Below, piece by piece: positions 7,190-22,754 of a stretch of DNA of 64,000 nt. The notes beneath the pieces were generated by a model. The model saw only the letters and a list, made by a program, of their open reading frames with translations. It made no database searches and had not been told where the DNA came from. A program made the position numbers and the translations under genes. The stretch comes from Phenylobacterium deserti. Its GTDB lineage: Bacteria; Pseudomonadota; Alphaproteobacteria; Caulobacterales; Caulobacteraceae. How positions within the stretch are numbered: the stretch's first letter is position 1; each line of letters opens with the position of its first letter. Where the stretch lies: the NCBI RefSeq assembly GCF_003254705.1, contig NZ_QFYR01000001.1, positions 806,001-870,000 on the forward strand, written 5' to 3'.

Positions 7190-9034
7190 ATGAGCGCGGC
7201 CCCCGATCTTCTCCGAACGCCCCCCATGGAGGCGGCGCGCGAGATCCTGCGGCGGGTGTTCGGCCACAAGGATTTCCGCGGCCTGCAGGGTGACGTGATC
7301 GCCGAGGCGCTGGCCGGGCGCAGCGCCCTGGCGGTGCTGCCGACGGGCGGCGGGAAAAGCGTCTGCTACCAGATCCCCAGCCTGGTGCGGCCGGGGCTTG
7401 GGCTGGTGGTCTCGCCGCTGATCGCGCTTATGGCCGACCAGGTGGCGGGGCTGCAGCAGTCGGGCGTGGCGGCGGCGCGGATGGACTCCAACGTCGATCC
7501 GCAGACCAAGGCCGAGACCTGGCGGCGCATCGAGGCCGGCGAGCTGGACCTGCTCTACATCTCGCCCGAAGGCCTGATGCAGCCGTGGATGCTGGACCGG
7601 CTGAAGCGCACGCCGCTGGCGCTGATCGCCATCGACGAGGCGCACTGCGTCAGCCAATGGGGCCACGACTTCCGGCCCGAATACCGGATGCTGGGGAAGC
7701 TGGCCGAGCTGTTCCCCGACGTGCCGCGGCTGGCGGTCACCGCCACGGCCGACAACCGCACGCGCGACGACATCCGCGCCGAGCTGAAGCTGGAGGACAG
7801 CGCTGAGTTCGTGGCGAGCTTCGCCCGGCCTGAGCTGATCCTGTCGGCCGAGCGCAAGAAGGGCGGGGCCCAGAAGCGGGTGGTGGAGCTGGTCACAGCC
7901 CGGCCGAACCGCTCGGGCGTGGTCTACGCCGGCTCGCGCGACGGGACGGAGAAGATCGCCGAGGCGCTGCGGCAGGCGGGCGTGCCCGCCCTCGCCTACC
8001 ACGCCGGCCTGGAGCGGCGGCTGCGCGAGGAGCGGCTGGAGCAGTTCCTGGAGGCCGACGAGGCGGTGATGGTGGCGACCATCGCCTTCGGCATGGGCGT
8101 CGACAAGCCGGACGTCCGCTTCGTGATCCACGCCGATCCGCCAGCCTCCATCGAGGCCTATTGGCAGGAGATCGGGCGGGCGGGGCGCGACGGCGAGCCG
8201 GCCGAGGGGATCACCCTCTACGGATCGGCGGACATGGCCTGGGCCCTGCGGCGCATCGGCGAGCGGGACGTGGACGACGGCGTCAAGCAGGTGCAGACGC
8301 GCAAGCTGCGCCAGCTCTACGCGCTGCTGGACGGCACCGGCTGCCGGGCGGCGGCGGTGCGGCGCTACTTCGGCGAGGAAGCGGTCAAGCCCTGCGGCCA
8401 GTGCGACCTGTGCCTGGGCGAGGTGGAGACCACCGACATGACCGTGGCGGCCCAGAAGGCGCTGTCGGCGGTGCACCGGCTCGGCGGGCGCTTCGGGCGC
8501 GGGCGGCTGATCGACCACCTGCTGGGCAAGACCAAGGACGTGTCCGACCACGAGGCGGGGCTGCCCACCTTCGGCATCGGCGGCGAGCTGTCGGCGGTGG
8601 GCTGGCGCGACCTGATCGAGCAGCTGCTGTTCGAGGGGCTGCTGCGGGAAGATCCCAACGACGGGCGGCCGCTGATCATGCTGGGCGAGGCGGACGGGGT
8701 GCGGGGCGTCTATCGCGGCGAGCGGCAGGTGTCGGTGCGCACCCAGGCTGAGCCGGCGGAGACCGTGCGCCGGCCGCGCCGCAAGCAGAAGGAGCCGCCG
8801 CTGGCCCCCGCCGACCAGCCGCTGTTCCAGGCCCTGCGGTCCTGGCGGGCGTCGGAAGCCAAGACCCAGCACGTGCCGCCCTATGTGATCTTCCACGACG
8901 CCACCCTGGCGGCGATCGCCAGCGCCCGGCCGGGCACGCGGGCGCTGCTGGAGCGGATCAACGGCGTGGGCGAAGGCAAGCTCGCCCGCTATGGCGACGC
9001 CGTGCTGGAAGTCGTGCGCAGCTTCGAGGGCTGA
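7190..9034 (+). CDS. recQ: ATP-dependent DNA helicase RecQ
   Basis: 3'-5' superfamily 2 DNA helicase for recombination and stalled-fork repair. The 614 residues show Walker A (LPTGGGKSVCYQIP) near residue 58, the DEAH box (AIDEAHCVSQWGHDFRPEY) with the RecQ aromatic loop, and the helicase C-terminal domain with AFGMGVDKPDVR and EIGRAGRDG. A zinc-binding cysteine set follows (PCGQCDLC) together with RQC winged-helix sequence. The C-terminal part (LFQALRSWR onward, ending in INGVGEGKLARYG) is an HRDC domain. Length and order of domains are standard. It is followed by two hairpins before the M1 peptidase, so it is probably transcribed alone. Confidence 0.96.
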   Translation: MSAAPDLLRTPPMEAAREILRRVFGHKDFRGLQGDVIAEALAGRSALAVLPTGGGKSVCYQIPSLVRPGLGLVVSPLIALMADQVAGLQQSGVAAARMDSNVDPQTKAETWRRIEAGELDLLYISPEGLMQPWMLDRLKRTPLALIAIDEAHCVSQWGHDFRPEYRMLGKLAELFPDVPRLAVTATADNRTRDDIRAELKLEDSAEFVASFARPELILSAERKKGGAQKRVVELVTARPNRSGVVYAGSRDGTEKIAEALRQAGVPALAYHAGLERRLREERLEQFLEADEAVMVATIAFGMGVDKPDVRFVIHADPPASIEAYWQEIGRAGRDGEPAEGITLYGSADMAWALRRIGERDVDDGVKQVQTRKLRQLYALLDGTGCRAAAVRRYFGEEAVKPCGQCDLCLGEVETTDMTVAAQKALSAVHRLGGRFGRGRLIDHLLGKTKDVSDHEAGLPTFGIGGELSAVGWRDLIEQLLFEGLLREDPNDGRPLIMLGEADGVRGVYRGERQVSVRTQAEPAETVRRPRRKQKEPPLAPADQPLFQALRSWRASEAKTQHVPPYVIFHDATLAAIASARPGTRALLERINGVGEGKLARYGDAVLEVVRSFEG

Positions 9035-9035
9035 G

Positions 9036-9088
9036 GCGCAACGGGCTTGCGCAGAAGGCGAGCTTCACGGCAACTGTCGCCTCGCCTT
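9036..9088 (+). terminator. two consecutive hairpins after recQ
   Basis: GCGCAA (9036-9041) pairs with TTGCGC (9047-9052) around a 5-nt loop, and AAGGCGAG (9055-9062) pairs with CTCGCCTT (9081-9088) around an 18-nt loop followed by TC. They fill most of the recQ to M1 peptidase gap. They may terminate recQ transcription, but the T tract is poor and the second loop long, so termination is only a suggestion. Confidence 0.35.
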
Positions 9089-9102
9089 TCACGGAGTTCG
9101 GC

Positions 9103-10971
9103 ATGATCCTCGCCCGCCTGCTCGCCGCCGCGCTCGTGTTCGGGATGGCGGGCCAAGCCGTCGCCGCGCCGCGCGCAGTCGCTCCGATCCTGGCCCGCGC
9201 GGATGCGGTGGACGACCAGTCCTACGCCCGGCCACGGGAAGCACGGGTCACGCACGTGGACCTCGACCTGGCGGTGGACTTCGCCAGCAAGACGGTCGGC
9301 GGGACGGCGGCGCTGGACGTGCAGGCCGCGCCGGGCGCCAAGGAGATCGTCCTCGACGCTCTGAACCTCGACATCGCGAAGGTGACCGACGGCGCGGGCA
9401 AGCCGCTGGCCTGGGCCCTGGGCGCCACTGATCCGGAAAAGGGCGCGCCGCTGACGGTGCAGCTTGGCGGCGCCAAGCGGGTGGTGGTGGCCTACCGCTC
9501 GCGGCCGGACGCGCGAGCCCTGCAATGGCTGGCGCCGGAGCTGACCGCCGGCAAGCGCAAGCCGTTCCTGTTCAGCCAGGGCCAGGCGATCAACAACCGC
9601 AGCTGGATCCCCACCCAGGACTCGCCGGGGATCCGCCAGACCTGGACCGCCCGCATCGTCGTGCCGGAAGACCTGATGGCGGTGATGAGCGCCGACAAGC
9701 TGACGCCCAAGGGCGAAGCGGCCGGGGCCGGCAAGCGGGCCTTCCGCTTCCGCATGGATCATCCCGTGCCGCCTTACCTGATCGCGCTGGGCGTCGGCGA
9801 CATCGCCTTCCGGGCGCTGGGCCCGCGCACCGGCGTCTACACCGAGCCGGCGATGATGGACCGGGCCGCCTATGAGCTGGCCGACACCGAGAAGATGGTG
9901 ACAACCGCCGAGCAGCTCTACGGGCCGTATCGCTGGGGCCGCTATGACGTGCTGGTCCTGCCCCCGGCCTTTCCGTACGGCGGGATGGAGAACGCCACCC
10001 TCACCTTCCTGACGCCCACCTTCATCACCGGCGACCGCGCCAATGTGGGGCTGGTGGCGCACGAGCTGGCGCACAGCTGGTCGGGCAACCTCGTCACCAA
10101 CGCCACTTGGAAAGACATCTGGCTGAACGAGGGCTTCACCTCCTACGTCGAGAACCGGATCATGGAGGCGCTCTACGGCCGCGACCGGGCGGTGATGGAG
10201 GCGGACCTCACCTGGGACGGCATGCAGGCGTCGATCCGCGAGCTTGGCGGGCCGACCGCCGAGGGCACCAAGCTCTACGGCTCACCCGACGCCCAGATGG
10301 ACTACTTCAAGGGCGAGACCTTCCTGCGGACGATCGAGACGATCGTCGGCCGCGAACGGTTCGACGCCTATCTGCGCGGCTATTTCGACCGCCACGCCTT
10401 CCAGCCCCAGACCACGGCGGCTTTCCTGGAGGACATCCGGGCCAAGCTGATCAGGGGCGATGCAGCGCTCGAAGCCAAGCTGAAGCTGGACGAATGGGCC
10501 TACCAGCCCGGCCTGCCGGACAACGCTGTGCACCTGCGCTCCGCCCTCCTGGAAGCGGTGGACCAGAAGGTCGCCGCCTTTGTAGCCGGCACGCCCGCCG
10601 GCCAGCTGGGCGCCCGCGATTGGACGACCCAGGAGTGGCAGCGGTTCCTGAACAACCTGCCCCGCAAGCTGACGAACGCTCAGCTCGCCGACCTCGACAG
10701 CGCTTTCAAGCTGTCGGCTTCCACCAACGGCTATGTGCGGACCGCCTGGCTGGAGCTGGCCATCGCCAATCGCTACGAGCCGGCCCTGCCGTTCCTGGAG
10801 GCGTTCCTGGGCAGCGTGGGACGCGGGCTGTTCCTGCGGCCGCTGTACCAGGGCCTGATGCGGCAAGGTGACTGGGGCCGGCCGCTGGCGCGCCGCTACT
10901 TCGACGCCTCGCGCGCCGGCTACCACCCGACGGTGGCCAGCAGCGTCGAGCGCATCGTCATCGGGACCTGA
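9103..10971 (+). CDS. secreted M1 family metallo-aminopeptidase
   Basis: Zinc aminopeptidase of the gluzincin M1 family (622 residues), predicted exported: the N-terminus is a typical signal peptide (MILARLLAAALVFGMAGQ, cleavage near VAA). The catalytic motif HELAHSWSGN (HExxH) is near residue 320, and the third zinc ligand lies in NEGFTSYVE about 18 residues on. FPYGGMENATLTFL upstream is the M1 GxMEN exopeptidase motif. The C-terminal half contains the leukotriene A4 hydrolase-like helical region. The following gene is a secreted M14 peptidase on the same strand, so the pair may degrade extracytoplasmic peptides for uptake. Confidence 0.92.
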   Translation: MILARLLAAALVFGMAGQAVAAPRAVAPILARADAVDDQSYARPREARVTHVDLDLAVDFASKTVGGTAALDVQAAPGAKEIVLDALNLDIAKVTDGAGKPLAWALGATDPEKGAPLTVQLGGAKRVVVAYRSRPDARALQWLAPELTAGKRKPFLFSQGQAINNRSWIPTQDSPGIRQTWTARIVVPEDLMAVMSADKLTPKGEAAGAGKRAFRFRMDHPVPPYLIALGVGDIAFRALGPRTGVYTEPAMMDRAAYELADTEKMVTTAEQLYGPYRWGRYDVLVLPPAFPYGGMENATLTFLTPTFITGDRANVGLVAHELAHSWSGNLVTNATWKDIWLNEGFTSYVENRIMEALYGRDRAVMEADLTWDGMQASIRELGGPTAEGTKLYGSPDAQMDYFKGETFLRTIETIVGRERFDAYLRGYFDRHAFQPQTTAAFLEDIRAKLIRGDAALEAKLKLDEWAYQPGLPDNAVHLRSALLEAVDQKVAAFVAGTPAGQLGARDWTTQEWQRFLNNLPRKLTNAQLADLDSAFKLSASTNGYVRTAWLELAIANRYEPALPFLEAFLGSVGRGLFLRPLYQGLMRQGDWGRPLARRYFDASRAGYHPTVASSVERIVIGT

Positions 10972-11008
10972 ACCTGCACGAGGCGGCGAACTCAGCTATG
11001 CAGGCGGC

Positions 11009-12829
11009 ATGAAGACCGCCTGCAGCCTTCTCGCCCTCGCTCTCCTTGCCGCCGCGGCGCCTGCGCAAGCCCAGCCGGCGCCGTGGTCAGACACCCTGCC
11101 CCCAGCCCTGCCCTGGCGCGGCAAGAGCGAACAGCTGGTCGCCAAGGCGAGCGATCCGTGGATCACGCCGTCGGAGCGGGCCGGGTTCGCCTCCACGCCC
11201 AGCTATGCGGACACGGTCGCCTATGTGGAGCGGCTGGCCGCCGCCTCGCCTCTGTTCCGGATCGAGCGGTTCGGGCGCACGCCGGAAGGGCGCGACCTGA
11301 TCGCCGTCGTGGCCAGCAAGGACCCGGCCGGCGCGCTGGATCCGGCCAAGCCGCTGGTGCTGATCCAGGCGGGCATCCACTCCGGCGAGATCGACGGCAA
11401 GGACGCCGGCCTGATGCTGCTGCGGGACATGGCGTTTCGGGGCAAGGCCGGCCTGCTGGACCGCGCAAATCTCGTCTTCGTGCCGATCTTCAACGCCGAC
11501 GGACACGAGAACACCTCGCCCTTCAGCCGGCCTAACCAGCGGGGGCCGCAGAGCCAGGGCTGGCGCACCACCGGCCAGAACATCAACCTCAACCGGGACT
11601 ACGCCAAGGCCGACAGCCCGGAGATGCAGGCCATGCTAGGCCTGATCGGCAAGTACGATCCGGACCTCTACCTGGACGTCCACGTCACCGACGGCGTGGA
11701 CTATGTCCACGACATCACCTTCTCCTTCCCCGGCTGGCACGGCCGCTACGCCCGCAGCCCGCAGGGCGGCGCATGGCTGGACAAGGTCTACCGCCCGCAG
11801 CTGGAAGCGGCCTTGCGGGCGGCTGGTCACTTCCCCGCGCCGTATCTCGATCCCGTTGATCCCCGCGCGCCGGAAAAGGGCATCGCGGTGGGGCCGGACA
11901 GCCCCCGCTTTTCCACCGGCTATGGCGATGCGCGGCGGCTGCCGACCGTGCTGATCGAGACCCATTCGCTGAAGCCGTACCGGCAGCGGGTGCTGGGAAC
12001 CTATGTGCTGCTGGAGCAGACGCTGAAGACCGCGGCGGCGGCAGGCGCCGAGCTGAAGGCGGCCAAGGCGGCGGACCGAGCGCTGCGCCCCGAGAAGGTC
12101 GTGCTGTCCTACAAGCCCAATGAGACCACCCCGGTGGACAGCTTCGAGTTCCTGCCGGTGCAGCGCGAAACCTACCGCTCGGCCGCGTCGGGGCGTGACG
12201 AAGTCCGCTGGCTGGGCAAGCCCGGCAAGCCAGTCCGCGTGCCGGTGTTCGGGGCCGATCCCGACATCGTGGTGGAGCGTCCGGCCGCTTACTGGGTGTC
12301 GGCGACCAAGCCCGAGATCATCGACCGCCTGCGCCGCCACGGGGTGCAGTTCGAAACGCTGTCAGAGCCCCGCACCGTCAGCGTCGAAGTGACCCGGCTG
12401 AGCGGCGCGGTCCAGAACCCGCGCGCCGACAAGGAGGGCCGCTGGCCGGTGAAGGTCGAGGGCTATGCGCCCGAGATGCGGCAGATGACCTATCCGGCCG
12501 ACTCGGTGCGCGTGGCCACCGACCAGCCGCTGGGCGAGCTGGCCAGCCTGATGCTGGAGGCTCGCAGCCCCGACGGCTTCCTGGCCTGGGGCTTCTTCCC
12601 GGAAATCCTGCAGCGCACCGAATACATGGAGGGCTACATCGTAGCTCCCCTGGCCGAGCGCATGCTGGCCGCCGATCCCACGCTGAAGGCCGAGTTCGAG
12701 GCCAAGCTCGCCGCCGACCCGGCCTTTGCGGCAGACGCCAACGCCCGCCTCGCCTGGTTCTACCAGCGCACGCCCTTCTTCGACCGCCGCTTCGAGATCT
12801 ACCCGGTGGGGCGCGAGCTGGCGCGCTGA
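11009..12829 (+). CDS. secreted M14 family zinc carboxypeptidase
   Basis: Zinc carboxypeptidase-type peptidase, 606 residues. The ATG at 11009 is chosen over upstream in-frame starts, which would lie inside the M1 gene, and it yields a signal peptide (MKTACSLLALALLAAAAPAQA). Zinc-binding HSGEIDGKD (HxxE) near residue 130 and the distal His in LDVHVTDGVDY are visible. ETHSLKPYRQRV probably carries the catalytic Glu region. The long C-terminal part (from about residue 350) is a family-specific extension of unknown role. It begins 37 nt after the M1 peptidase and is likely co-transcribed with it. Confidence 0.9.
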   Translation: MKTACSLLALALLAAAAPAQAQPAPWSDTLPPALPWRGKSEQLVAKASDPWITPSERAGFASTPSYADTVAYVERLAAASPLFRIERFGRTPEGRDLIAVVASKDPAGALDPAKPLVLIQAGIHSGEIDGKDAGLMLLRDMAFRGKAGLLDRANLVFVPIFNADGHENTSPFSRPNQRGPQSQGWRTTGQNINLNRDYAKADSPEMQAMLGLIGKYDPDLYLDVHVTDGVDYVHDITFSFPGWHGRYARSPQGGAWLDKVYRPQLEAALRAAGHFPAPYLDPVDPRAPEKGIAVGPDSPRFSTGYGDARRLPTVLIETHSLKPYRQRVLGTYVLLEQTLKTAAAAGAELKAAKAADRALRPEKVVLSYKPNETTPVDSFEFLPVQRETYRSAASGRDEVRWLGKPGKPVRVPVFGADPDIVVERPAAYWVSATKPEIIDRLRRHGVQFETLSEPRTVSVEVTRLSGAVQNPRADKEGRWPVKVEGYAPEMRQMTYPADSVRVATDQPLGELASLMLEARSPDGFLAWGFFPEILQRTEYMEGYIVAPLAERMLAADPTLKAEFEAKLAADPAFAADANARLAWFYQRTPFFDRRFEIYPVGRELAR

Positions 12830-12855
12830 GCGCCTGGCTCGGGCCCCGCGCCTCC

Positions 12856-13848
12856 TTATGAGCCCGGCTGCGCCCCCGTGCGCGTCGGGCGGGTGCGGAT
12901 GACGTAGTCGACGCCTTCGGGCGCGACCGGCAGCTTGGTCCGGTTGGCCTTCAACCAGCCGATGAAGTCGGCCTCGATCGCCGGCGTCCAGGCGGTGTCG
13001 ATCTCGCCCGCCGTATACTTCTTCTCACGCAGCCGCTGGTGACCGAACGCGTCGGCGAGGCGAACTTCTTCGCTTTCCTGCACCACCCGTTCGGCCAGTT
13101 GCGCGGGGATGAACAGCACCCCGCCGTTGCGGCCGAGCACGACATCCCCGGGCATCACCGTCGCCTTGCCGATGTGGGTGGGGCCGTTGATGCTGACCAT
13201 GGTCGAGTTGAGCCGCGCGCCCGTGGAAAGGGCGCCGAAGTGGTGCGAGGGGTCGTAGGAGCGCACGAAGGCGGTGAAGTTCGGCAACTCCTTCAGCCCT
13301 TCGATGTCGCGCACCGCCCCGTCATAGACGATGCCGTTGCCGGTGCGGGCGTAGATGGCGTTGCCGACGTTGTCGCCGATGGAAGGGCCGTTCTCCTTCA
13401 GCCCGAAGTGGTCGGCGACATAGACGTCGCGCGGCTGCAGCATGTCGACCGGCCAGGCGTTCTGAGCGCCCTTGCGGTTCATGCGGCGCCCATCCTCTTC
13501 GAGGACCTTCTGCAGGTCGGGCCTGCCTGGGACCCATTGGGCGGTGAGCGCGCGGCCGACCAGCACCTTGTCGGGGAAGAGGCTCAGCCAGCCGTCCTCG
13601 TACTGGTGGTTGAAGCCGGCCGAGCGCAGGGTCGCCCAGGCCTCCTCCAGCGTCACCTGGCGCATGCGGTCGAGGATCGCGTCCGGCACCTTGGGGCGTC
13701 CGTCAGGGAAGCGCTCGCCGGTCCATTCCGGCGAATAGTGGACGACCTCCTCGCGCGACATGAAGCCGGGCGCCGGCGATTGTGCGCCGGCGGAGACGGC
13801 GCTGAGAAGGGCGATCGCGGCGGCGCAGATCGGCAGCTTGAAGGGCAT
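12856..13848 (-). CDS. exported RraA-like (aldolase/demethylmenaquinone methyltransferase family) protein
   Basis: The 330-residue protein belongs to the RraA-like fold, which in other bacteria includes 4-hydroxy-4-methyl-2-oxoglutarate and related aldolases and the RNase E regulator RraA. The conserved divalent-metal/substrate motif DGAVRDIEGL is present, followed by a GDVVLG-type strand. The ATG at 13848 follows AAGGATCCTCC and gives a clear signal peptide (MPFKLPICAAAIALLSAVSAGA), whereas RraA proteins are normally cytoplasmic. A long N-terminal extension (to about residue 110) precedes the RraA core. It lies 55 nt downstream of an exported ThuA-like gene on the same strand, suggesting a periplasmic degradative pair. 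The substrate is unknown. Confidence 0.8.
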   Translation of the reverse strand: MPFKLPICAAAIALLSAVSAGAQSPAPGFMSREEVVHYSPEWTGERFPDGRPKVPDAILDRMRQVTLEEAWATLRSAGFNHQYEDGWLSLFPDKVLVGRALTAQWVPGRPDLQKVLEEDGRRMNRKGAQNAWPVDMLQPRDVYVADHFGLKENGPSIGDNVGNAIYARTGNGIVYDGAVRDIEGLKELPNFTAFVRSYDPSHHFGALSTGARLNSTMVSINGPTHIGKATVMPGDVVLGRNGGVLFIPAQLAERVVQESEEVRLADAFGHQRLREKKYTAGEIDTAWTPAIEADFIGWLKANRTKLPVAPEGVDYVIRTRPTRTGAQPGS

Positions 13849-13903
13849 GGAGGATCCTTGTTCTTGTCGTTCGGGCGCAGCCGCGCGCGGCGGTTCTATG
13901 TGA

Positions 13904-14869
13904 TCAGAGTTCGGGCGGAGGCGGCGAGGAGACGCCGCCACGCGGGACCTTGCCCGTGGCCGTCCAAAGGATGCCGTTGAGCAGGAAGCGGCGGTAATCG
14001 GCGAACTTGTGCATGTTGTCGTGGAAGTCCGAGCCGCCCCACACCAGGGAGCGCCCGCCGTCCGGACGTTGGTAGGCCCAGGCGACCGGACCGCCGGAGC
14101 CGTTCTCCGGCTTGGCAGGGGTGGCCGTGAGGAGCTCGGTCCGGCCCGGATTGTCGAACAGGAAGTACCGCGAATACATCTCTTCGCGGAACGTCCAGGG
14201 CTTCACCCCGTCCAGCACCGGGTGGCGGGTCTTGAGCGGCTTCACCGCCCAGGTGTCGACCGGATTGTGCGAGGCATAGGGGATCCACAGGCCGCCCAGC
14301 CAATCGAGCAGGTAGCGGCGGCCGACCCAGTTCTCGACCCACATGGTGTAGTGGAAGATGGCGACGCCCATCTGCTTGCGCTTGATCAGCGCATCGAGCT
14401 TGGCGAGCCAGGCCGTGGTCTCGGCGTCGTAGGTGCGGCCGTCGGTGTCCTGGAATTGCGGAAACAGCGCGCCGGTTTCCCGCCGAAGCCAGTCGCCGTT
14501 GCCGTCGATCACGAGGGCGTCGGCGCCTTCGATGATGCTGAGGTCGCGCGGCGAGCCGCCGACCACCACCTGGGTGGTGACGTTCTGTACGTTGGCGGCA
14601 TGTTCCAGAGACCAGGCGAGTTCACGCAGGTCCTTTTCGTACTCGTGCCGGCCGGGCGCGCCATGTTGCTTCGGGCCGGCCAGGAACACGATCTTGTAGG
14701 TTCGGGCAGGCTCGGCCGGTTTCGGCGCCGCCTGCGCCGCCGTGCTGAAGAGGGCCGCTATCATGGCCAGCAGGGCCGCGATCGGCCGCAGCCACGCCGT
14801 GCCGCCCCGCTCGCCCGGACGTCCCAGCGCGCGCCCCAGCGGGCGCCGCGTGGTCGCGCTTCCAGTCAT
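13904..14869 (-). CDS. exported ThuA-like domain protein
   Basis: A 321-residue protein with an N-terminal hydrophobic segment (IAALLAMIAALFSTAAQA) acting as signal peptide or anchor, followed by a ThuA-like class I glutamine-amidotransferase fold: YKIVFLAGPKQHG at the start, ADALVIDGNGDWL, then GVAIFHYTMW, and LVWGGSDFHDN near the end. ThuA proteins occur in sugar (trehalose, sucrose) utilisation and in secreted degradation gene sets of many Gram-negative bacteria; the reaction is usually unassigned. It is the first gene of a two-gene unit with the RraA-like gene. The upstream region is the palindrome-containing gap before the glycan island. Confidence 0.8.
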   Translation of the reverse strand: MTGSATTRRPLGRALGRPGERGGTAWLRPIAALLAMIAALFSTAAQAAPKPAEPARTYKIVFLAGPKQHGAPGRHEYEKDLRELAWSLEHAANVQNVTTQVVVGGSPRDLSIIEGADALVIDGNGDWLRRETGALFPQFQDTDGRTYDAETTAWLAKLDALIKRKQMGVAIFHYTMWVENWVGRRYLLDWLGGLWIPYASHNPVDTWAVKPLKTRHPVLDGVKPWTFREEMYSRYFLFDNPGRTELLTATPAKPENGSGGPVAWAYQRPDGGRSLVWGGSDFHDNMHKFADYRRFLLNGILWTATGKVPRGGVSSPPPPEL

Positions 14870-15174
14870 GTTCCTCTCCGTCCCGTCCAGCCGCTTTGCG
14901 CGGTCTCGGCATGATCGGAACAGGCGCGCCGATCATATAGGATACGGAGGGTTCAAGCCTGACGTGCAGACGTCAAGCCAGGCTTTGGAGCAGGGTGGGT
15001 ACGCTCAAGCCGTTCGGAGCGATCACGATCCTACATTGCGTTACTCGGCAGAGCGCAGCCGCACCTGCGTCAGATGTAGGCGCGAGCCAGCACATGTGCT
15101 GACGGAAAGACCCTTGACGATGTCGCACCTGCGACCTCTACCGGTGCGGCTCGAACATCATCTGGACCTACATC
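14870..15174. other. 305-nt intergenic region with several dyads
   Basis: No convincing gene. It separates the divergent ThuA-like gene and the first island methyltransferase and marks where the base composition becomes visibly more AT-rich. It contains three inverted repeats: TGACGT/ACGTCA (14960-14975), a 14-bp perfect palindrome (15088-15101) and GTCGCA/TGCGAC (15122-15135). A TTGACG hexamer at 15114-15119 could be a -35 element for the rightward gene; the matching -10 is poor. Confidence 0.6.
15088..15135 (+). promoter_or_regulatory. candidate operator/promoter region before island methyltransferase
   Basis: CAGCACATGTGCTG (15088-15101) is a perfect 14-bp palindrome. TTGACG (15114-15119) resembles a sigma-70 -35 hexamer. 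GTCGCA-CC-TGCGAC (15122-15135) is a second dyad, lying between the -35 and the expected -10 position. The spacing to the TTG start at 15175 is compatible with a repressor-controlled promoter. No regulator gene lies adjacent, so the binding factor is unknown. Confidence 0.35.
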
Positions 15175-15918
15175 TTGGCCGCATTCTTTGAAGAACATGA
15201 CCGGTTCCTCGCCACAAGCGAGGTTGGCGCCTGGCCGGCTCGTTTGAACGGAAGGTACGAGGCTATCATTGCGCGACATGTGGATCAGCTCCGCGGTGCG
15301 CGCGTGCTGGACATCGGAAGCCATGATGGGAGGTGGGCGCTAGCCGCATTGAAGGCAGGAGCAGCGCACGTCACGGGCGTTGAAGCTCGACCTGAGTTGG
15401 TTCAGCGGGCTGAGGAGAACCTGACCTCGTACGGCGTGGACGGCTCAAGGTTCAGCTTCTTGGTCAGCGACATGAACCACAAGCGCAACGTTCAAGGCGC
15501 TAGCTTCGACGTCGTCCTCTGCCTCGGCTATTTCTATCACACGCTCAATCACATGGCGCTTTGGCAGCTTATGGCGTCGACCGGTGCACGGCACCTGATC
15601 CTGGACGGCACCGTAGAGCCAACCGACGCGCCAGTGATCGCGCTTATGCAGGAGGATATCTCCCACCACGCAAATGGAACTTCGGCTGAGGGCGTGATCG
15701 GCGGGCAGATCTTGGTCGGACACCCGAGCCCTAGCGCGCTTGGGCTTCTCTGCGAGCAGGTTGGCTTCTCTTTCGCGCTGGTGGATTGGGGTCCGATCCT
15801 GCAGAAGCTCCGACCGGAAGCAGAACCGCTGCGGCGACTTCCTTCTGCGGGCGATCCGCTGGCAGACTACGCGTACGGAAGTCGTGTCACGGGGCTCGCC
15901 ACGCGCCGGGTCCTCTGA
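15175..15918 (+). CDS. class I SAM-dependent methyltransferase
   Basis: A 247-residue methyltransferase of unknown substrate. SAM motif I is RVLDIGSHDGRWALAAL near residue 45, followed by the acidic ribose-binding strand VTGVEARPE. Motif IV-like sequence is FDVVLCLGYFYHTL, as in Methyltransf_11/23 proteins. The only usable start in this frame is TTG at 15175; the frame is open upstream only to 15118 and offers no ATG or GTG. No strong Shine-Dalgarno is visible. Codon choice and base composition look more AT-rich than the flanking genes. With the next methyltransferase and the glycosyltransferase-sulfotransferase gene it probably modifies a surface glycan or its lipid-linked precursor. Confidence 0.78.
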   Translation: MAAFFEEHDRFLATSEVGAWPARLNGRYEAIIARHVDQLRGARVLDIGSHDGRWALAALKAGAAHVTGVEARPELVQRAEENLTSYGVDGSRFSFLVSDMNHKRNVQGASFDVVLCLGYFYHTLNHMALWQLMASTGARHLILDGTVEPTDAPVIALMQEDISHHANGTSAEGVIGGQILVGHPSPSALGLLCEQVGFSFALVDWGPILQKLRPEAEPLRRLPSAGDPLADYAYGSRVTGLATRRVL

Positions 15919-16043
15919 GTGCTTGCGAGCGAACTCGACGTCGAACAGTCGCGTCTTCTGCTCAAAGGGACCGTGGATCAGCGACGCTCAGGGCCGAGCA
16001 GAGTTGGTAGCGGGTCGCGCGGCTACGGTGCTAAACGCCCACC

Positions 16044-16799
16044 ATGGAACAGATCTGGCTCTCCGAAGATCATGGCACCCTTAGAGGTGTTCCATTCCGC
16101 TTTCACAACGGCAACTACGAGAACCTGCGAACCACCGCAGATGAGATCGTTGTCCTGAAGCGTCGCTTTTTCATGGAGAACTATCGTGCGCTCGCAGCCC
16201 ATGGGCCTGTGCGGCGCATGCTTGAAGTAGGCGTTTTCCAGGGGGGCTCTTCTCTACTGTTCGCGGATATGTTCCCGGAAGCAAAGATCGTCGGAATAGA
16301 CTGGAACCAGGGAAACCCCGAGATCCAGGCGCATCTGGAACGGATGGGGTACGCCGACCGTGTAAAGCTCTACTGGGGCGTCTCACAAGACGACAGAGCG
16401 CGCATTGAAGGGATACTCCGAGCGGAGTTTGAAGGCGAACCTCTGGATTGGGTGGTCGACGACTGCTCCCACCTTTACAGCTACACCACGAAGTCTTTCG
16501 ACGTAGTCTATCCGCATATCCGACGGGGCGGGTTCTATGCGCTGGAGGACTGGGGCTGCGTTCACAAGCTCGGGCGTGCGCTCCCCGCTTACTTCTTCGA
16601 AACTGAACAGAAGCCGTTATCGGCCATGGTGCTGGAACTGGCGATGGCGGCTGTCTGCTACCCGCAATCCTGCGAGCTATCGCTGACCTTTCAGCAGGCT
16701 TTCGTGCGCAAGCTCAACGACTTGCCGCCGTTCGAGCAACTCGCAAGGCCGCAGAGCGGCGCCTTCGATTGGGTAGGCTTCCGCCCGGCCACCTCGTAG
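16044..16799 (+). CDS. class I SAM-dependent methyltransferase, CmcI/Methyltransf_24-like
   Basis: A 251-residue protein with the Rossmann methyltransferase core: RRMLEVGVFQGGSSLLFADMF (motif I), AKIVGIDWNQGNP (acidic loop), and DWVVDDCSHLYSYT with the metal/acceptor-binding Asp-Asp and His pattern seen in CmcI- and TylF-like sugar O-methyltransferases. The substrate is likely a sugar or glycan, judged only from family and context. The start ATG at 16044 is 125 nt after the previous gene. It converges with the large fusion gene, whose stop lies 20 nt downstream. Confidence 0.78.
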   Translation: MEQIWLSEDHGTLRGVPFRFHNGNYENLRTTADEIVVLKRRFFMENYRALAAHGPVRRMLEVGVFQGGSSLLFADMFPEAKIVGIDWNQGNPEIQAHLERMGYADRVKLYWGVSQDDRARIEGILRAEFEGEPLDWVVDDCSHLYSYTTKSFDVVYPHIRRGGFYALEDWGCVHKLGRALPAYFFETEQKPLSAMVLELAMAAVCYPQSCELSLTFQQAFVRKLNDLPPFEQLARPQSGAFDWVGFRPATS

Positions 16800-16819
16800 T
16801 TTGCGCGCGACGCTCGCCA

Positions 16820-19800
16820 TCACGGAAGCGGGTCAGCTTCGAAGAACCGGGCGTAAGAGCTTCCTTGGAAATGGGCGGCCAAGTCATCCCAGTTGGCGAC
16901 GATCTCGCGAGAAGAGCGCGCGAGTTGCTTCCGAATGGCGGGCGTTACCGGCCGCGGAGAGACACCGAGGAACTCGTAGAGCGCCTTAGACTGGCTTTCG
17001 AAGCTTGCGGCGAAGTCGGAGTACCGAACGCGAATGGCCGACATGTCAGCGACATAGCTGTCGAAGAACGCTTTGGTCTGTTCATGCGCACGGAAGAAGT
17101 CTTCAGCTTCGTCTGGCAAGATCGTGATCTGACGCCGCTCATCCGGCACGGCGGATGCACCAACGCGACGAACCCATTCACCTGTGCTCTCAGCCATTCT
17201 CCGCGAGACGAGCACGTCCATGAGATTGTCGCGCCAGACGTACACAACCTTCAGATCGGGCACGTCCGACTTCAGGCGGGCGAATAGATCCCTTGTTCCT
17301 TCAGTCGCGACGTGCTCGTTGAACAGCTTGAACCCGACGGCGCGAGCGCTGCTGACCTCCGCATTCCAGACGTTCGCCCACAGGAAGTCCAGCGCGTCCT
17401 CGGCGTCAGGTTGGTAGGCTCGACGCCCCGAGGGTGTGATCATTGCGTGATCGCCCTCTCGCTCAGACGCCACCCAGTGAAATAGCTCGCCGTAAGCTCG
17501 GATGTCGGGATGTTGGTCCAAGGTTGTTTGGATCAAAGTCGAGCCAGTGCGTGGCGCACCGATCACGATGAACTTCTGCATCGTTGCCTGCGGCTTGGCT
17601 TTCGCTGCGGCCGCCGTGGTCAAAGCTCCCTGTAGCGCCCGCCCGGTCGCGTTGAGGTAGGCGGATCCGAAGTGCACGTCGGGCTCGAGGTAGGCACCTT
17701 CAGCCCACTCGTTCCAAGCATTGATCGCAACCACAGGACGCCCTTGCACCGGAGTCTCGATCGCTCGATCGATCAGGGCCTTCAGCCAAGCTTGGTATTT
17801 CGCAGGGGAAGACCCCTCGAGCATCAAGCCACGATTTGGTCGCCTAGCTTCGTTGTCCCAGCTGGGCAGAGCCGTCTTAATGATCGGGAATGGAGGTTGC
17901 GGTTCCTCAAGAGAGCTCTTCACGAAGTCATCGTAAGCGATGACCTGGCCGGAGAAATCCCGGGAGAACGCGTCCAGGACGTCCCGACGCGGCGCCCGCG
18001 AGCCGATCTTGTGTGGCGGGAACTCCAGGGCGCCATCCAGGCCATACCCACGGGGATCATCTCGGCCAAAGGTCTGGGACAGATAGATCAGCGGATTCAG
18101 ACCGAACTGATCACGCCACTTCTGTCGCCACCGCCCAATGGTCTCTGTCGTATTCGGGATAGGCCCGGGATTGTAGATCACGAACAGTGGCCGCCCATCG
18201 AGTCGCACATAACGCTCGTCCAGCATGTGCCTGGCTAGATCGGCGAGTAGCGCGTCTTCGTCTTCGTCGCGGTATTCCTGCTCCAGAAGCACGTCGTGCG
18301 CACCTCCGTCCCAGGTGCGCGTCCAGTTCTCGTTCGCCCAGATAAGCAGGAAGGGCATGTCGATGTCCGACCCGAGAAACTGCTCGATCGGCTTTTCTAG
18401 GACGCGCTTCCTGTTGAACCAGTAGTAGTAGAACGCGAAGGCGCCGATGCCTCCGGCTTTAGCCATGTCCGCCTGGCGACGCATCACATCCAGGTCGAGC
18501 AGGTTGTAGAAGCCAAGATCCCTTGGGATCCTGGGCTGATAGTGCCCGGGGAAACGCGGCGCTCCGCGCGCGAGTTGACGCCATTCCGTAAAGCCTGGGC
18601 CCCAGAACTGATCGTTCTCAGGGATCGCGTGGTACTGCGAGAGGTAGAACGCGATGATTAGGGGATCGGCGTTTGGGGACAATGACGCTCGTTTTTGGCC
18701 AAGCGATAGATCGAATTCCTCGAACTCTGCTCCAGCCGCGGTGAACCTTGCGTGCTCCCGCAGGACGGCAGCGCCACCCTCTCCGGTGACGGCCGGCATG
18801 CTCTCCAGCGGGGGAAGCTGAAGGTCCGTTTCGAGCCATTCAGGCGTATCCAGAAACAGGCGCAGCTTCGGACGCTCGTCACCCGCCAGTGGCCGGTAGA
18901 AGTTCACAACGAAGCCGTACCTTCCGGTGCCGATGTTCCGGCGCTGGAGGTCCGCGCGGGGGTAGTTCGCTTCCCCGTGTCCGATCACCTCGTCGTTCAG
19001 CACGGCTTCGACCATGACGGTTCGCTCGGGCTCTTCCGGAACCCAAGCCCAACCATGTACCTCTCGGCGGGTCAGCTTGTTGACCTCGCCCAAGATCCTG
19101 TTCGTGCTGGTGGCTTGGACATCGGCACTCTGCCCGTCACCTTGCGTACTGCCCTGCCGCACGCTGATCAGAACTTCGGCCTGACGCACTTCCTTGAGGA
19201 ACTCGTCGGTCAGAACCTCTTTGGCACCCGCTGCAAGGGCGGATGTTAGTGCTGGAGCCTGGCGCAACATCACGTGGGCTTCGGGGAACCGGCGACTGGC
19301 CCAGCGGTACTCACTCTGTAGCTGCGCAGCCCCGAGCAACGCAGTGTTGGTTTTCGCGAAGCCGCATTGCACCGCACTCCGGAGCGCGATGTCTCTCTCG
19401 ATGATAGAAAGCGACGATCCGCCCTGCGTTTCGGCCGTTGGTTGACGTAGCCGAGCGAGGAACTTGCTCGTAGCCACAGTGGGCCCGACCTCAGCGCTGG
19501 CGAGAAGCAGCGCGAGGCCCGGATCGGTGGGGAAGCGCAAGCCTCGGAAGCCGCTCAGGAAGCCGGCCTGAGCAAACGCTGCTCGGCGGATCAGGCAGTT
19601 GCTCACACGGACCAGAGGATTTTTCGCGACGCGCGAAAAGTGCTCAGTGATCTGTTTCTGATCAAACCACAGCCAACCATCGTTTGGGAACAGGAGGGGG
19701 CGCTCAATGGCGCGGCCCAGAGCATCAATGATGGCGTATCGGCTGAAGGCGAACACATAACGGGCATCGCGCTGCAGATGCCCTGCGAGCTCCTCGATGA

Positions 19801-20080
19801 ATTCCGGCTCGAATGCGTCGCCGTCATTCAGCATGGCGAAAAACGCGCCGCCACCCTCGTTCCAGACGCGGGCTGCCGCGCCGGCATAGGTGTTCTCACC
19901 CTGGATCACACGCAGACGCGGGTCCCTGATACGGGCGGCCAGCTTAGACACCGAGCCGTCAGCACTGCCGTCAACAACGATGAGTTCGAGATCCGAGAAC
20001 GTCTGCGCCAAAACGCTCGAGATTGACTCGAGCAGGAACTGCGTTTGAGCGGCGTAGAGTCCTACAGTGATCTGCGCCAT
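16820..20080 (-). CDS. GT2 - beta-domain - WbsX/GH99-like - sulfotransferase fusion protein
   Basis: A 1086-residue multidomain protein. Residues 1-230 are a GT-A family 2 glycosyltransferase (IVVDGSADGS, metal-binding NDGD near 85-88). Residues about 335-425 form a beta-rich accessory domain starting VHGWAWVP. Residues about 473-825 match the WbsX/GH99-like domain (IAFYLSQYHAIPEND, FWGPGFTEW, WANENWTRTWDG, INAWNEWAEGAYLEP). Residues 834-1086 are a sulfotransferase with the PAPS 5'-phosphosulfate loop GAPRTGSTLI and an Arg-x8-Ser 3'-phosphate region (RDNLMDVLVS). No signal peptide or membrane span is seen, so it is probably cytoplasmic or membrane-peripheral. It likely builds and sulfates a surface polysaccharide. 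WbsX and sulfotransferase domains are usually separate genes; a frameshift-joined artefact is unlikely because the frame is continuous with inter-domain linkers. Confidence 0.85.
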   Translation of the reverse strand: MAQITVGLYAAQTQFLLESISSVLAQTFSDLELIVVDGSADGSVSKLAARIRDPRLRVIQGENTYAGAAARVWNEGGGAFFAMLNDGDAFEPEFIEELAGHLQRDARYVFAFSRYAIIDALGRAIERPLLFPNDGWLWFDQKQITEHFSRVAKNPLVRVSNCLIRRAAFAQAGFLSGFRGLRFPTDPGLALLLASAEVGPTVATSKFLARLRQPTAETQGGSSLSIIERDIALRSAVQCGFAKTNTALLGAAQLQSEYRWASRRFPEAHVMLRQAPALTSALAAGAKEVLTDEFLKEVRQAEVLISVRQGSTQGDGQSADVQATSTNRILGEVNKLTRREVHGWAWVPEEPERTVMVEAVLNDEVIGHGEANYPRADLQRRNIGTGRYGFVVNFYRPLAGDERPKLRLFLDTPEWLETDLQLPPLESMPAVTGEGGAAVLREHARFTAAGAEFEEFDLSLGQKRASLSPNADPLIIAFYLSQYHAIPENDQFWGPGFTEWRQLARGAPRFPGHYQPRIPRDLGFYNLLDLDVMRRQADMAKAGGIGAFAFYYYWFNRKRVLEKPIEQFLGSDIDMPFLLIWANENWTRTWDGGAHDVLLEQEYRDEDEDALLADLARHMLDERYVRLDGRPLFVIYNPGPIPNTTETIGRWRQKWRDQFGLNPLIYLSQTFGRDDPRGYGLDGALEFPPHKIGSRAPRRDVLDAFSRDFSGQVIAYDDFVKSSLEEPQPPFPIIKTALPSWDNEARRPNRGLMLEGSSPAKYQAWLKALIDRAIETPVQGRPVVAINAWNEWAEGAYLEPDVHFGSAYLNATGRALQGALTTAAAAKAKPQATMQKFIVIGAPRTGSTLIQTTLDQHPDIRAYGELFHWVASEREGDHAMITPSGRRAYQPDAEDALDFLWANVWNAEVSSARAVGFKLFNEHVATEGTRDLFARLKSDVPDLKVVYVWRDNLMDVLVSRRMAESTGEWVRRVGASAVPDERRQITILPDEAEDFFRAHEQTKAFFDSYVADMSAIRVRYSDFAASFESQSKALYEFLGVSPRPVTPAIRKQLARSSREIVANWDDLAAHFQGSSYARFFEADPLP

Positions 20081-20246
20081 GAACGAGCCCCTTCCGCCTC
20101 AGCGGCGGACAACTAGCCAGGACTATCGGCGCAGGCAACTGGGGTACGCGCCACGCCGCGCCTCAGGTCGGGTTTGGGCGCGCCAACATAGCTGGGGATG
20201 TCGGAGCGCGCCCGCGTGCTGTCAGACGCGCTCCGTTGCTACACCC

Positions 20247-22754
<2,508 letters not shown>

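Follow-up and report, generated by a model that had tools for sequence, protein, structure and literature searches.

A Phenylobacterium fusion protein joins GT2, WbsX and NodH-like sulfotransferase modules and may build and sulfate a surface glycan

A single reading frame next to gyrB encodes the fusion protein

We analyzed a window of 64,000 nucleotides from Phenylobacterium deserti, in which a fusion gene on the minus strand (16820..20080) runs from an ATG to a stop codon and encodes a protein of 1086 aa. Its upstream neighbor on the same strand is gyrB (20247..22673, minus strand), and at its other side it lies end to end with a methyltransferase gene (Methyltransf_24; 16044..16799, plus strand). 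A second methyltransferase gene (Methyltransf_25) is found at 15175..15918 of the plus strand, and both are of similarly low GC. The fusion gene adjoins gyrB outside any recognized O-antigen or capsule cluster, which counts against a role in surface-glycan assembly. Together with the methyltransferase genes it was absent from beside gyrB in the nine relatives examined, and the low-GC stretch formed by the three genes looks acquired. A Shine-Dalgarno-like AAGGGG, read by eye, stands 7 bases 5' of the start codon, and scans for promoters and terminators gave no signal above chance. The highest hydropathy mean over 19 residues is 1.12, which suggests that the protein has no membrane segment.

Three Pfam domains exceed their curated cut-offs in this one frame, namely GT2 (residues 14-169), WbsX (475-812) and Sulfotransfer_3 (838-1041). 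The original prediction of one polypeptide comprising GT2, WbsX/GH99-like and sulfotransferase parts is therefore borne out. The predicted WbsX and sulfotransferase limits came within ~15 residues of Pfam (both starts and the WbsX end), while the stretches predicted for GT2 and the sulfotransferase extend beyond what Pfam matched, as a complete module should.

A stop codon between the modules had been named as the mark of an artefact, and the same module order was absent from every other genome searched, as would fit an assembly or sequencing error. However, the frame contains neither an internal stop nor a frameshift, all modules are present and intact, and the gene sits within a 1.9-Mb contig of an assembly of 10 contigs. 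Moreover, GC and GC3 are level across the gene, GC3 being 0.71-0.77 over every module (0.94 in the adjoining gyrB). In a comparison with a homolog from the same genus (genome G036; 285 codons), 76, 56 and 164 differences fell on codon positions 1, 2 and 3, respectively. From its even GC3 and this third-position divergence, the fusion is a genuine gene. Given the composition, the pattern of codon positions and the intactness of every module, we rejected an assembly artefact and regard it as extremely improbable.

The GT2 module is followed by a strand-rich insert

The GT2 module spans residues 1-230 (19391..20080, minus strand) and matches Glycos_transf_2 (PF00535) at residues 14-169 with 48.9 bits (curated cut-off 23.3). 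Its DxD region is altered, reading LNDGD at residues 84-88 here and AEGD in the G036 homolog; DGD could act as the DxD motif. The following residues 231-330 (19091..19390, minus strand) belong to no family and are weakly similar to the G036 homolog (36% over 77 residues).

Between the GT2 and WbsX modules, a beta-domain had been predicted. Residues ~331-430 (18791..19090, minus strand) form a strand-rich module in our model (pLDDT averaged by block, 47-92) and resemble four tandem copies preceding WbsX in a protein of Rhodoblastus sphagnicola (L034; 30-42% identity); three copies occur in L226, from the same-family genome G754. The tandem copies and the strand-rich model both speak for such a domain. 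It gave no match in Pfam, and a sequence search for a solved relative returned none, with two matches at chance level.

The WbsX module is predicted to adopt a GH99-type fold

The WbsX module (residues 475-812; 17645..18658, minus strand) matches Glyco_tran_WbsX (PF14307) with 389 bits (curated cut-off 25.1) over profile positions 1-350 of 350. A full-length alignment for structure prediction was discarded because GT2 and sulfotransferase fragments fell in the WbsX region. The model of the module (pLDDT 89.6) shows a GH99-type barrel. Its top match in a structure search was 5ngw (Z 25.5), and rows 2-29 were GH99 entries, with Z of 22.5-23.9 and rmsd of 3.2-4.7 over 281-296 aligned residues. 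The GH99 model of Pfam gave no match in the fusion protein at E up to 0.01, WbsX being assigned instead. At the sequence level, the WbsX profile did reach GH99 with an E of 4e-5, aligning NEWAEG with NEWHEG. The NEWAEG motif occupies residues 790-795 (17696..17713, minus strand) and places E791 and E794 at the positions of the catalytic glutamates of GH99, which are E333/E336 in Bacteroides and E404/E407 in MANEA. E404/E407 are reported to be catalytic and common to bacterial GH99 (PMC11025385).

The glutamate pair was present in 95/95 fragments, a count biased by NAWNEWAE being one of the six search patterns. NEW[AG]EG was found in 25 of the 29 loci fetched by the Pfam model (L002-L030); these carry flanks of up to 1.5 kb, so that end modules may be missing, and are partly duplicated by L133-L158. 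The WbsX module thus has a predicted GH99-type fold and, by alignment, keeps the catalytic pair.

The fold and the conserved pair, along with the recurrence of the motif, would also be consistent with a module that is no nucleotide-sugar glycosyltransferase but trims a sugar or links it anew, as a hydrolase or transglycosidase of GH99-type mechanism, so that the protein edits and sulfates rather than polymerises. Against this stand the bias of the 95/95 count and the usual company of WbsX. Pfam scans of 25 WbsX proteins gave GT2- or GT1-type matches in 20, RgpF in four further ones and neither in one (L062). This fusion to glycosyltransferase-type modules in 24/25 proteins, counting RgpF, suggests synthesis. 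We consider editing possible, though rather less probable than glycan building.

The C-terminal module resembles NodH-type sulfotransferases

The sulfotransferase module (residues 838-1041; 16958..17569, minus strand) matches Sulfotransfer_3 (PF13469) with 56 bits (curated cut-off 27) over profile positions 3-213 of 216. It is NodH-like, as the best solved match of its profile is annotated 'LPS sulfotransferase NodH' (PDB 9vki; E 3.5e-25, positions 8-233 of 263). The predicted motif GAPRTGSTLI was indeed found at residues 841-850 (17531..17560, minus strand), which we take to be the loop binding the 5'-phosphosulfate of PAPS. Downstream follows RDNLMDVLVS from R950 to S959 (17204..17233, minus strand), presumably the stretch binding the 3'-phosphate, so that the loop and the downstream Arg and Ser are both in place. 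In an alignment of five sequences including that of the window, G846, K918 and R950 are among the invariant residues; S959 is not among the invariants listed. A model of this module built from two sequences was unusable (pLDDT 39).

In favor of sulfation, the source genome contains APS-kinase matches, of which the strong ones are two partial copies (profile positions 82-152) at both ends of one contig; PAPS synthesis is therefore not fully proven. This partial evidence for PAPS supply would fit a module that is inactive or acts elsewhere, e.g., on a lipid or another sugar, its fusion to WbsX being irrelevant to a glycan. In the same direction points the O-antigen cluster of Aeromonas salmonicida, which contains a sulfotransferase-domain ORF although the glycan, whose structure is known, is reported to have no residue that corresponds to it (PMC4483657). 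However, the Sulfotransfer_3 score lies well over its cut-off, and the expected PAPS loop and the invariant residues are kept. We thus consider an inactive or otherwise directed module unlikely.

Relatives share the core but differ in their terminal modules

A homolog within the genus is the G036 protein (locus L133), with the order GT2-WbsX-GT4. Its GT2 and WbsX parts are 40% and 66% identical to those of the fusion protein and follow the same order, but neither the beta module nor the sulfotransferase finds a match in it, and a GT4 domain comes after WbsX. This copy is split over several frames; gyrB and a second gyrB-like gene of that genome are likewise broken. L034 (four beta modules-WbsX-GT2-GT4) and L226 (three beta modules-WbsX-GT2-GT4) have their beta modules directly before WbsX as well and are 56% and 50% identical to the fusion protein over ~510 residues. 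They differ in the number of beta modules, in having GT2 and GT4 after WbsX, and in giving no sulfotransferase match. GT4 and GT2 also follow WbsX in L037, L043 and L086, whereas L109 is methyltransferase-WbsX-RgpF and L062 is WbsX alone. Unlike these scanned relatives without a sulfotransferase-like part, the fusion protein has GT2 first and the sulfotransferase last. Judging from domain matches, it is common for WbsX mega-proteins to carry their GT modules in shuffled arrangements.

The same architecture was sought in genome samples comprising one genome per species. Among the matches listed, best first, none was full-length in the 100 other genomes of the genus and none crossed the fusion junction in the 397 other sampled genomes of the order; with best-first listing, a full-length match would have appeared. 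The order GT2-WbsX-C-terminal NodH-type module was found in none of the best 80 of 591 related loci. On plasmids, 142 records matched, none with a single place covering 80% of the query. Eleven loci on viral contigs had no NodH-type part in the WbsX frame, and when viral sequences were scanned again for sulfotransferases, our own query was all that matched.

Sulfotransferase-like modules do recur at the other end of WbsX proteins. An N-terminal one lies in the WbsX frame in 10 of the best 80 of 591 loci, a single one of them above the Pfam cut-off (L110), and 6 of 15 hand-picked regions from the order search contain sulfotransferase-like and WbsX fusions; the profile for N-terminal modules was built from the same proteins that were later counted with it. 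When 18 such proteins were scanned, two exceeded the Sulfotransfer_3 cut-off (L110, 56 bits; L230, 32.5 bits), ten stayed below it (17.5-26.4 bits) and six gave no Sulfotransfer_3 row. L110 and L230 count against the rarity of our finding, and the recurrence of such fusions led us to reject a unique combination of activities. In L110, L230, L042, L095 and others, a single chain unites WbsX with sulfotransferase-like and GT-type modules, as here, but their sulfotransferase is N-terminal and of a different subfamily; a profile of ten N-terminal modules did not match the window.

Our literature searches, which covered few subscription journals, found no paper joining WbsX with a sulfotransferase and a glycosyltransferase, nor with GH99, and fixed phrases found no glycosyltransferase-sulfotransferase fusion. 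In the original prediction, this order was not known to have been described. In its exact form the order is indeed absent elsewhere in our searches, but the combination of GT-type, WbsX and N-terminal sulfotransferase-like modules recurs.

A proposed role in glycan building and sulfation

We slightly favor a real, soluble multi-module glycan-assembly enzyme that would build and sulfate a surface glycan; its activities, its substrates and the nature of the polysaccharide are inferred. The GT2 module may extend a surface glycan by one sugar, the WbsX module with its GH99 fold may make or remake a second glycosidic linkage via E791/E794, and the C-terminal NodH-like module could move sulfate from PAPS onto a hydroxyl group of that chain. 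The strand-rich insert might hold the glycan or serve as a spacer. The gene probably arose by module shuffling inside the widespread WbsX mega-protein class, same-core relatives having GT4 or GT2-GT4 in place of its sulfotransferase. Of the initial idea that one enzyme extends and sulfates a glycan, the real fusion stands and building plus sulfating is the best reading; its extending part is weakened by the GH99 fold and pair of WbsX and the altered DxD of GT2. As the central module has a glycosidase fold and catalytic pair, extension is most safely assigned to GT2. In a bolder version, the GH99-fold module would form glycosidic bonds by its glycosidase-type glutamate pair and the NodH-like module would sulfate the product, yielding a sulfated repeat or sulfate-ended chain without any other protein, which we hold to be quite unlikely.

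No biochemical assignment of WbsX modules was found in the paper listings searched, though they are common in large glycan enzymes. In favor of a role in surface glycans, truncating mutations of a multi-domain wbsX are reported from phage-resistant isolates of Burkholderia gladioli, where they are interpreted as altered O-antigen (PMC13391952). A compact protein with an intact GH99 pair and an attached sulfotransferase may offer a sulfate handle to read out WbsX function, and is a lead towards new sulfated bacterial polysaccharides.

Comparison with known systems

ABC-transporter-dependent polymerase-terminators of the WbbB and WbdA/WbdD type also hold several glycan-assembly modules per polypeptide, catalysis in our protein being inferred. 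For Klebsiella O-antigens, polymerising GT modules and a terminating module are reported in single polypeptides (PMC11231755), a precedent for our main reading. By analogy with the methyl, phosphomethyl and Kdo caps there, the sulfotransferase might act as a chain terminator, a sulfate cap at the non-reducing end halting extension. However, such a cap feeds an ABC transporter, and these systems have a glycan-binding Wzt C-domain, for which the source genome gave no match (Wzt_C, PF14524; 0/1); this absence also weighs against our main reading. We find a capping role very improbable.

WbsX O-antigen glycosyltransferases (PF14307), which are annotated as 'glycoside hydrolase family 99-like domain-containing protein', likewise carry WbsX in a large multi-domain protein. 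With GH99 endo-alpha-mannosidase/mannanase, the WbsX module has the barrel fold and both catalytic glutamates in common, but identity in the aligned core is 15-19% and Pfam assigns no GH99 family. Finally, the NodH-type LPS sulfotransferase 9vki, whose profile match is given above, is a separate 264-residue chain, whereas in the fusion protein its counterpart forms the C-terminal module.

A single reading frame joins the three modules

The gene at window 16820-20080 (-) lies within a 1.9-Mb contig and reads through 1086 codons, ATG to stop, in one open frame. Pfam places GT2 at residues 14-169, WbsX at residues 475-812 and Sulfotransfer_3 at residues 838-1041, each above the curated cut-off, which bears out the modules and coordinates of the original prediction. 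GT2 is followed by a stretch without family (residues 231-330) and a strand-rich β-module (residues about 331-430) that precedes WbsX. NCBIfam yielded sub-threshold GT2-type names only. The modules are alike in composition (GC 0.60-0.64, GC3 0.71-0.77); the adjacent gyrB has a GC3 of 0.94, and the window flanks of the fusion have a mean GC of 0.70 and 0.69.

In its WbsX part, the fusion aligns over 285 codons with its closest homolog, from a same-genus genome (G036); 189 residues are shared, and differences number 76, 56 and 164 at codon positions 1, 2 and 3, a pattern typical of protein-coding sequence. An assembly or sequencing artefact is very unlikely for the fusion. In G036, the WbsX homolog is split over three frames, which reflects assembly errors or decay, as gyrB and a second gyrB-like gene are also split there. 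The breaks between frames in these three genes (L133, L208) look as if indel errors were widespread in that genome.

The fusion lies downstream of gyrB on the same strand (gap of 166 bases), and two methyltransferase genes end against it (15175-15918 (+), GC 0.62; 16044-16799 (+), GC 0.58). We looked for gyrB in ten genomes of the genus and retrieved the region around it from nine of them. The fusion, both methyltransferases and the ThuA, RraA-like and M14 genes had no match in any of the nine (E up to 1e-8). The distance between gyrB and the gene at window 7190-9034 is ~40 bases in G010, 2-3 kb in G024 and G049 and ~13 kb in G028; in the remaining five that gene is outside the fetched stretch or absent. 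Relative to G010, the window carries ~11 kb extra (9.0-20.2 kb). Window 9034-20247 (M14 peptidase, RraA-like, ThuA, two methyltransferases, fusion and others) has no counterpart near gyrB in these nine genomes.

The WbsX module is modelled with a glycosidase fold and retains an expected catalytic pair

A model of the WbsX region (residues 325-826, from 45 sequences) reached a mean pLDDT of 89.6. Its top re-aligned structure match was the ‘glycoside hydrolase-like protein’ 5ngw (Z 25.5), followed by GH99 enzymes (Z 22.5-23.9), GH71-type enzymes (Z 18.5-19.8) and other enzymes (Z ≤15.9). Agn1 is counted here with the GH71-type enzymes. The WbsX-family profile also matched a Bacteroides GH99 enzyme in sequence (E 4e-5), placing NEWAEG opposite NEWHEG, whose first glutamate is the residue replaced in 5mel, by its title an E333Q variant. 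E791 and E794 of the fusion are expected to form the catalytic pair because of this alignment and because E404 and E407 of human MANEA, identical in bacterial GH99, are catalytic according to PMC11025385. Both glutamates are kept in 95 of 95 fragments, a count biased by the use of NAWNEWAE itself as search pattern; NEW[AG]EG is present in 25 of the 29 loci retrieved via the Pfam model and missing from four divergent ones, L026-L029. Divergent WbsX-like genes without an intact NEWxEG occur within the genus (L026, L027, L028, L029 and L157).

Judging from its fold, the WbsX module, although named a glycosyltransferase, may employ glycosidase-like chemistry. Of chief interest, rather than the fusion itself, is that a presumed biosynthetic enzyme retains both the fold and the catalytic pair of a glycosidase.

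The flanking modules resemble chondroitin synthase and NodH

Among solved structures, the GT2 module is closest to chondroitin synthase (2z86/2z87; E 2.9e-5), followed by SpsA (E 0.00099). Where a DxD motif is usual, it has LNDGD (residues 84-88), and the G036 counterpart AEGD. The sulfotransferase module contains GAPRTGSTLI, the expected PAPS loop. When it is aligned with four relatives that are not fused, the invariant positions include G846, G916, K918, R950 and Y1020. The resulting five-sequence profile matched ‘LPS sulfotransferase NodH’ (9vki) with an E of 3.5e-25, ahead of tyrosylprotein sulfotransferases (4e-14). The best sequence matches listed for the module are frames of mostly ~210-310 residues with 25-32% identity over the matched part.

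The own genome holds one WbsX gene, three Sulfotransfer_3 matches and one copy of the β-module; no Wzt_C was found in it. The APS-kinase matches consist of a single partial domain, present at either end of contig C6, and a further weak hit, so PAPS supply is likely, short of proven. The partial match recurs with equal score and opposite orientations at bases 2-211 and 408130-408339 (L171, L172), as if the ends were a repeat or assembly overlap.

Related fusions carry a sulfotransferase-like part at the other end

Among 85 WbsX-bearing frames (best 80 of 591 loci), ten carry an N-terminal sulfotransferase-like part and none a NodH-type part. Adding two proteins from the Pfam relatives search and six from the order search gave 18 proteins of the N-terminal type. 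Sulfotransfer_3 exceeded its 27-bit cut-off in L110 (56 bits) and L230 (32.5 bits); another ten stayed under it (17.5-26.4 bits), and for the other six, among them L113, cut at a contig end, it was unlisted. The fusion as such has N-terminal counterparts. The module of our fusion comes from another branch, because a profile built from ten N-terminal parts had no match in the window.

L110:8660-12673, from a Chloroflexi MAG (1338 aa), reads sulfotransferase-WbsX-RgpF-NKWYS, each above the Pfam cut-off, a second sulfotransferase-WbsX fusion from another phylum with different module order. Among the matches listed, query 1-1086 (101 genus genomes including the own) and junction 770-1086 (398 sampled order genomes including the own) were matched over their whole length in the own genome only. 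The class sample (385 genomes including the own) has WbsX in 9 and Sulfotransfer_3 in 204; in stretches fetched from the eight other WbsX-bearing genomes, WbsX frames lack a NodH-type part. Elsewhere, L224:3734-6448 (G722) encodes 905 aa with TPR repeats and then two tandem sulfotransferase domains, and L233 and L234 (G527, G650; another genus of the family) each hold two NodH-type genes on opposite strands within ~8 kb.

The G036 homolog is ordered GT2-WbsX-GT4, without match to the β-module or sulfotransferase of the fusion. A Rhodoblastus sphagnicola locus (L034) reads β×4-WbsX-GT2-GT4 and a same-family locus (L226, genome G754) β×3-WbsX-GT2-GT4, 56% and 50% identical to the fusion over the β-WbsX core; no Pfam model matched their tandem modules.

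Proposed function and comparison with known systems

The fusion protein has no membrane-like segment and, by analogy to multi-module O-antigen enzymes, would be a cytoplasmic enzyme acting on a lipid-linked chain. Most likely, the GT2 module would add a sugar, WbsX would form or remodel a second linkage, and sulfation of the product would fall to the NodH-like module. The fusion itself is confirmed; the proposal that one enzyme extends and sulfates a glycan is partly supported. In the available parts of PMC11766843 and PMC11641403, the sulfotransferases behind sulfated capsules of Cobetia and Vibrio are cluster genes, with no sulfotransferase fusion mentioned. The A. salmonicida cluster cautions against reading a sulfated glycan from such a domain: it has a sulfotransferase-domain ORF, yet its O-antigen no such residue (PMC4483657). 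The proposed working finds support from experiments elsewhere, in Burkholderia gladioli, where a large multi-domain wbsX bears nonsense and frameshift mutations in phage-resistant isolates and the authors infer altered O-antigen (PMC13391952), and in Klebsiella O-antigen enzymes, which combine polymerising GT modules and a terminator in one chain (PMC11231755).
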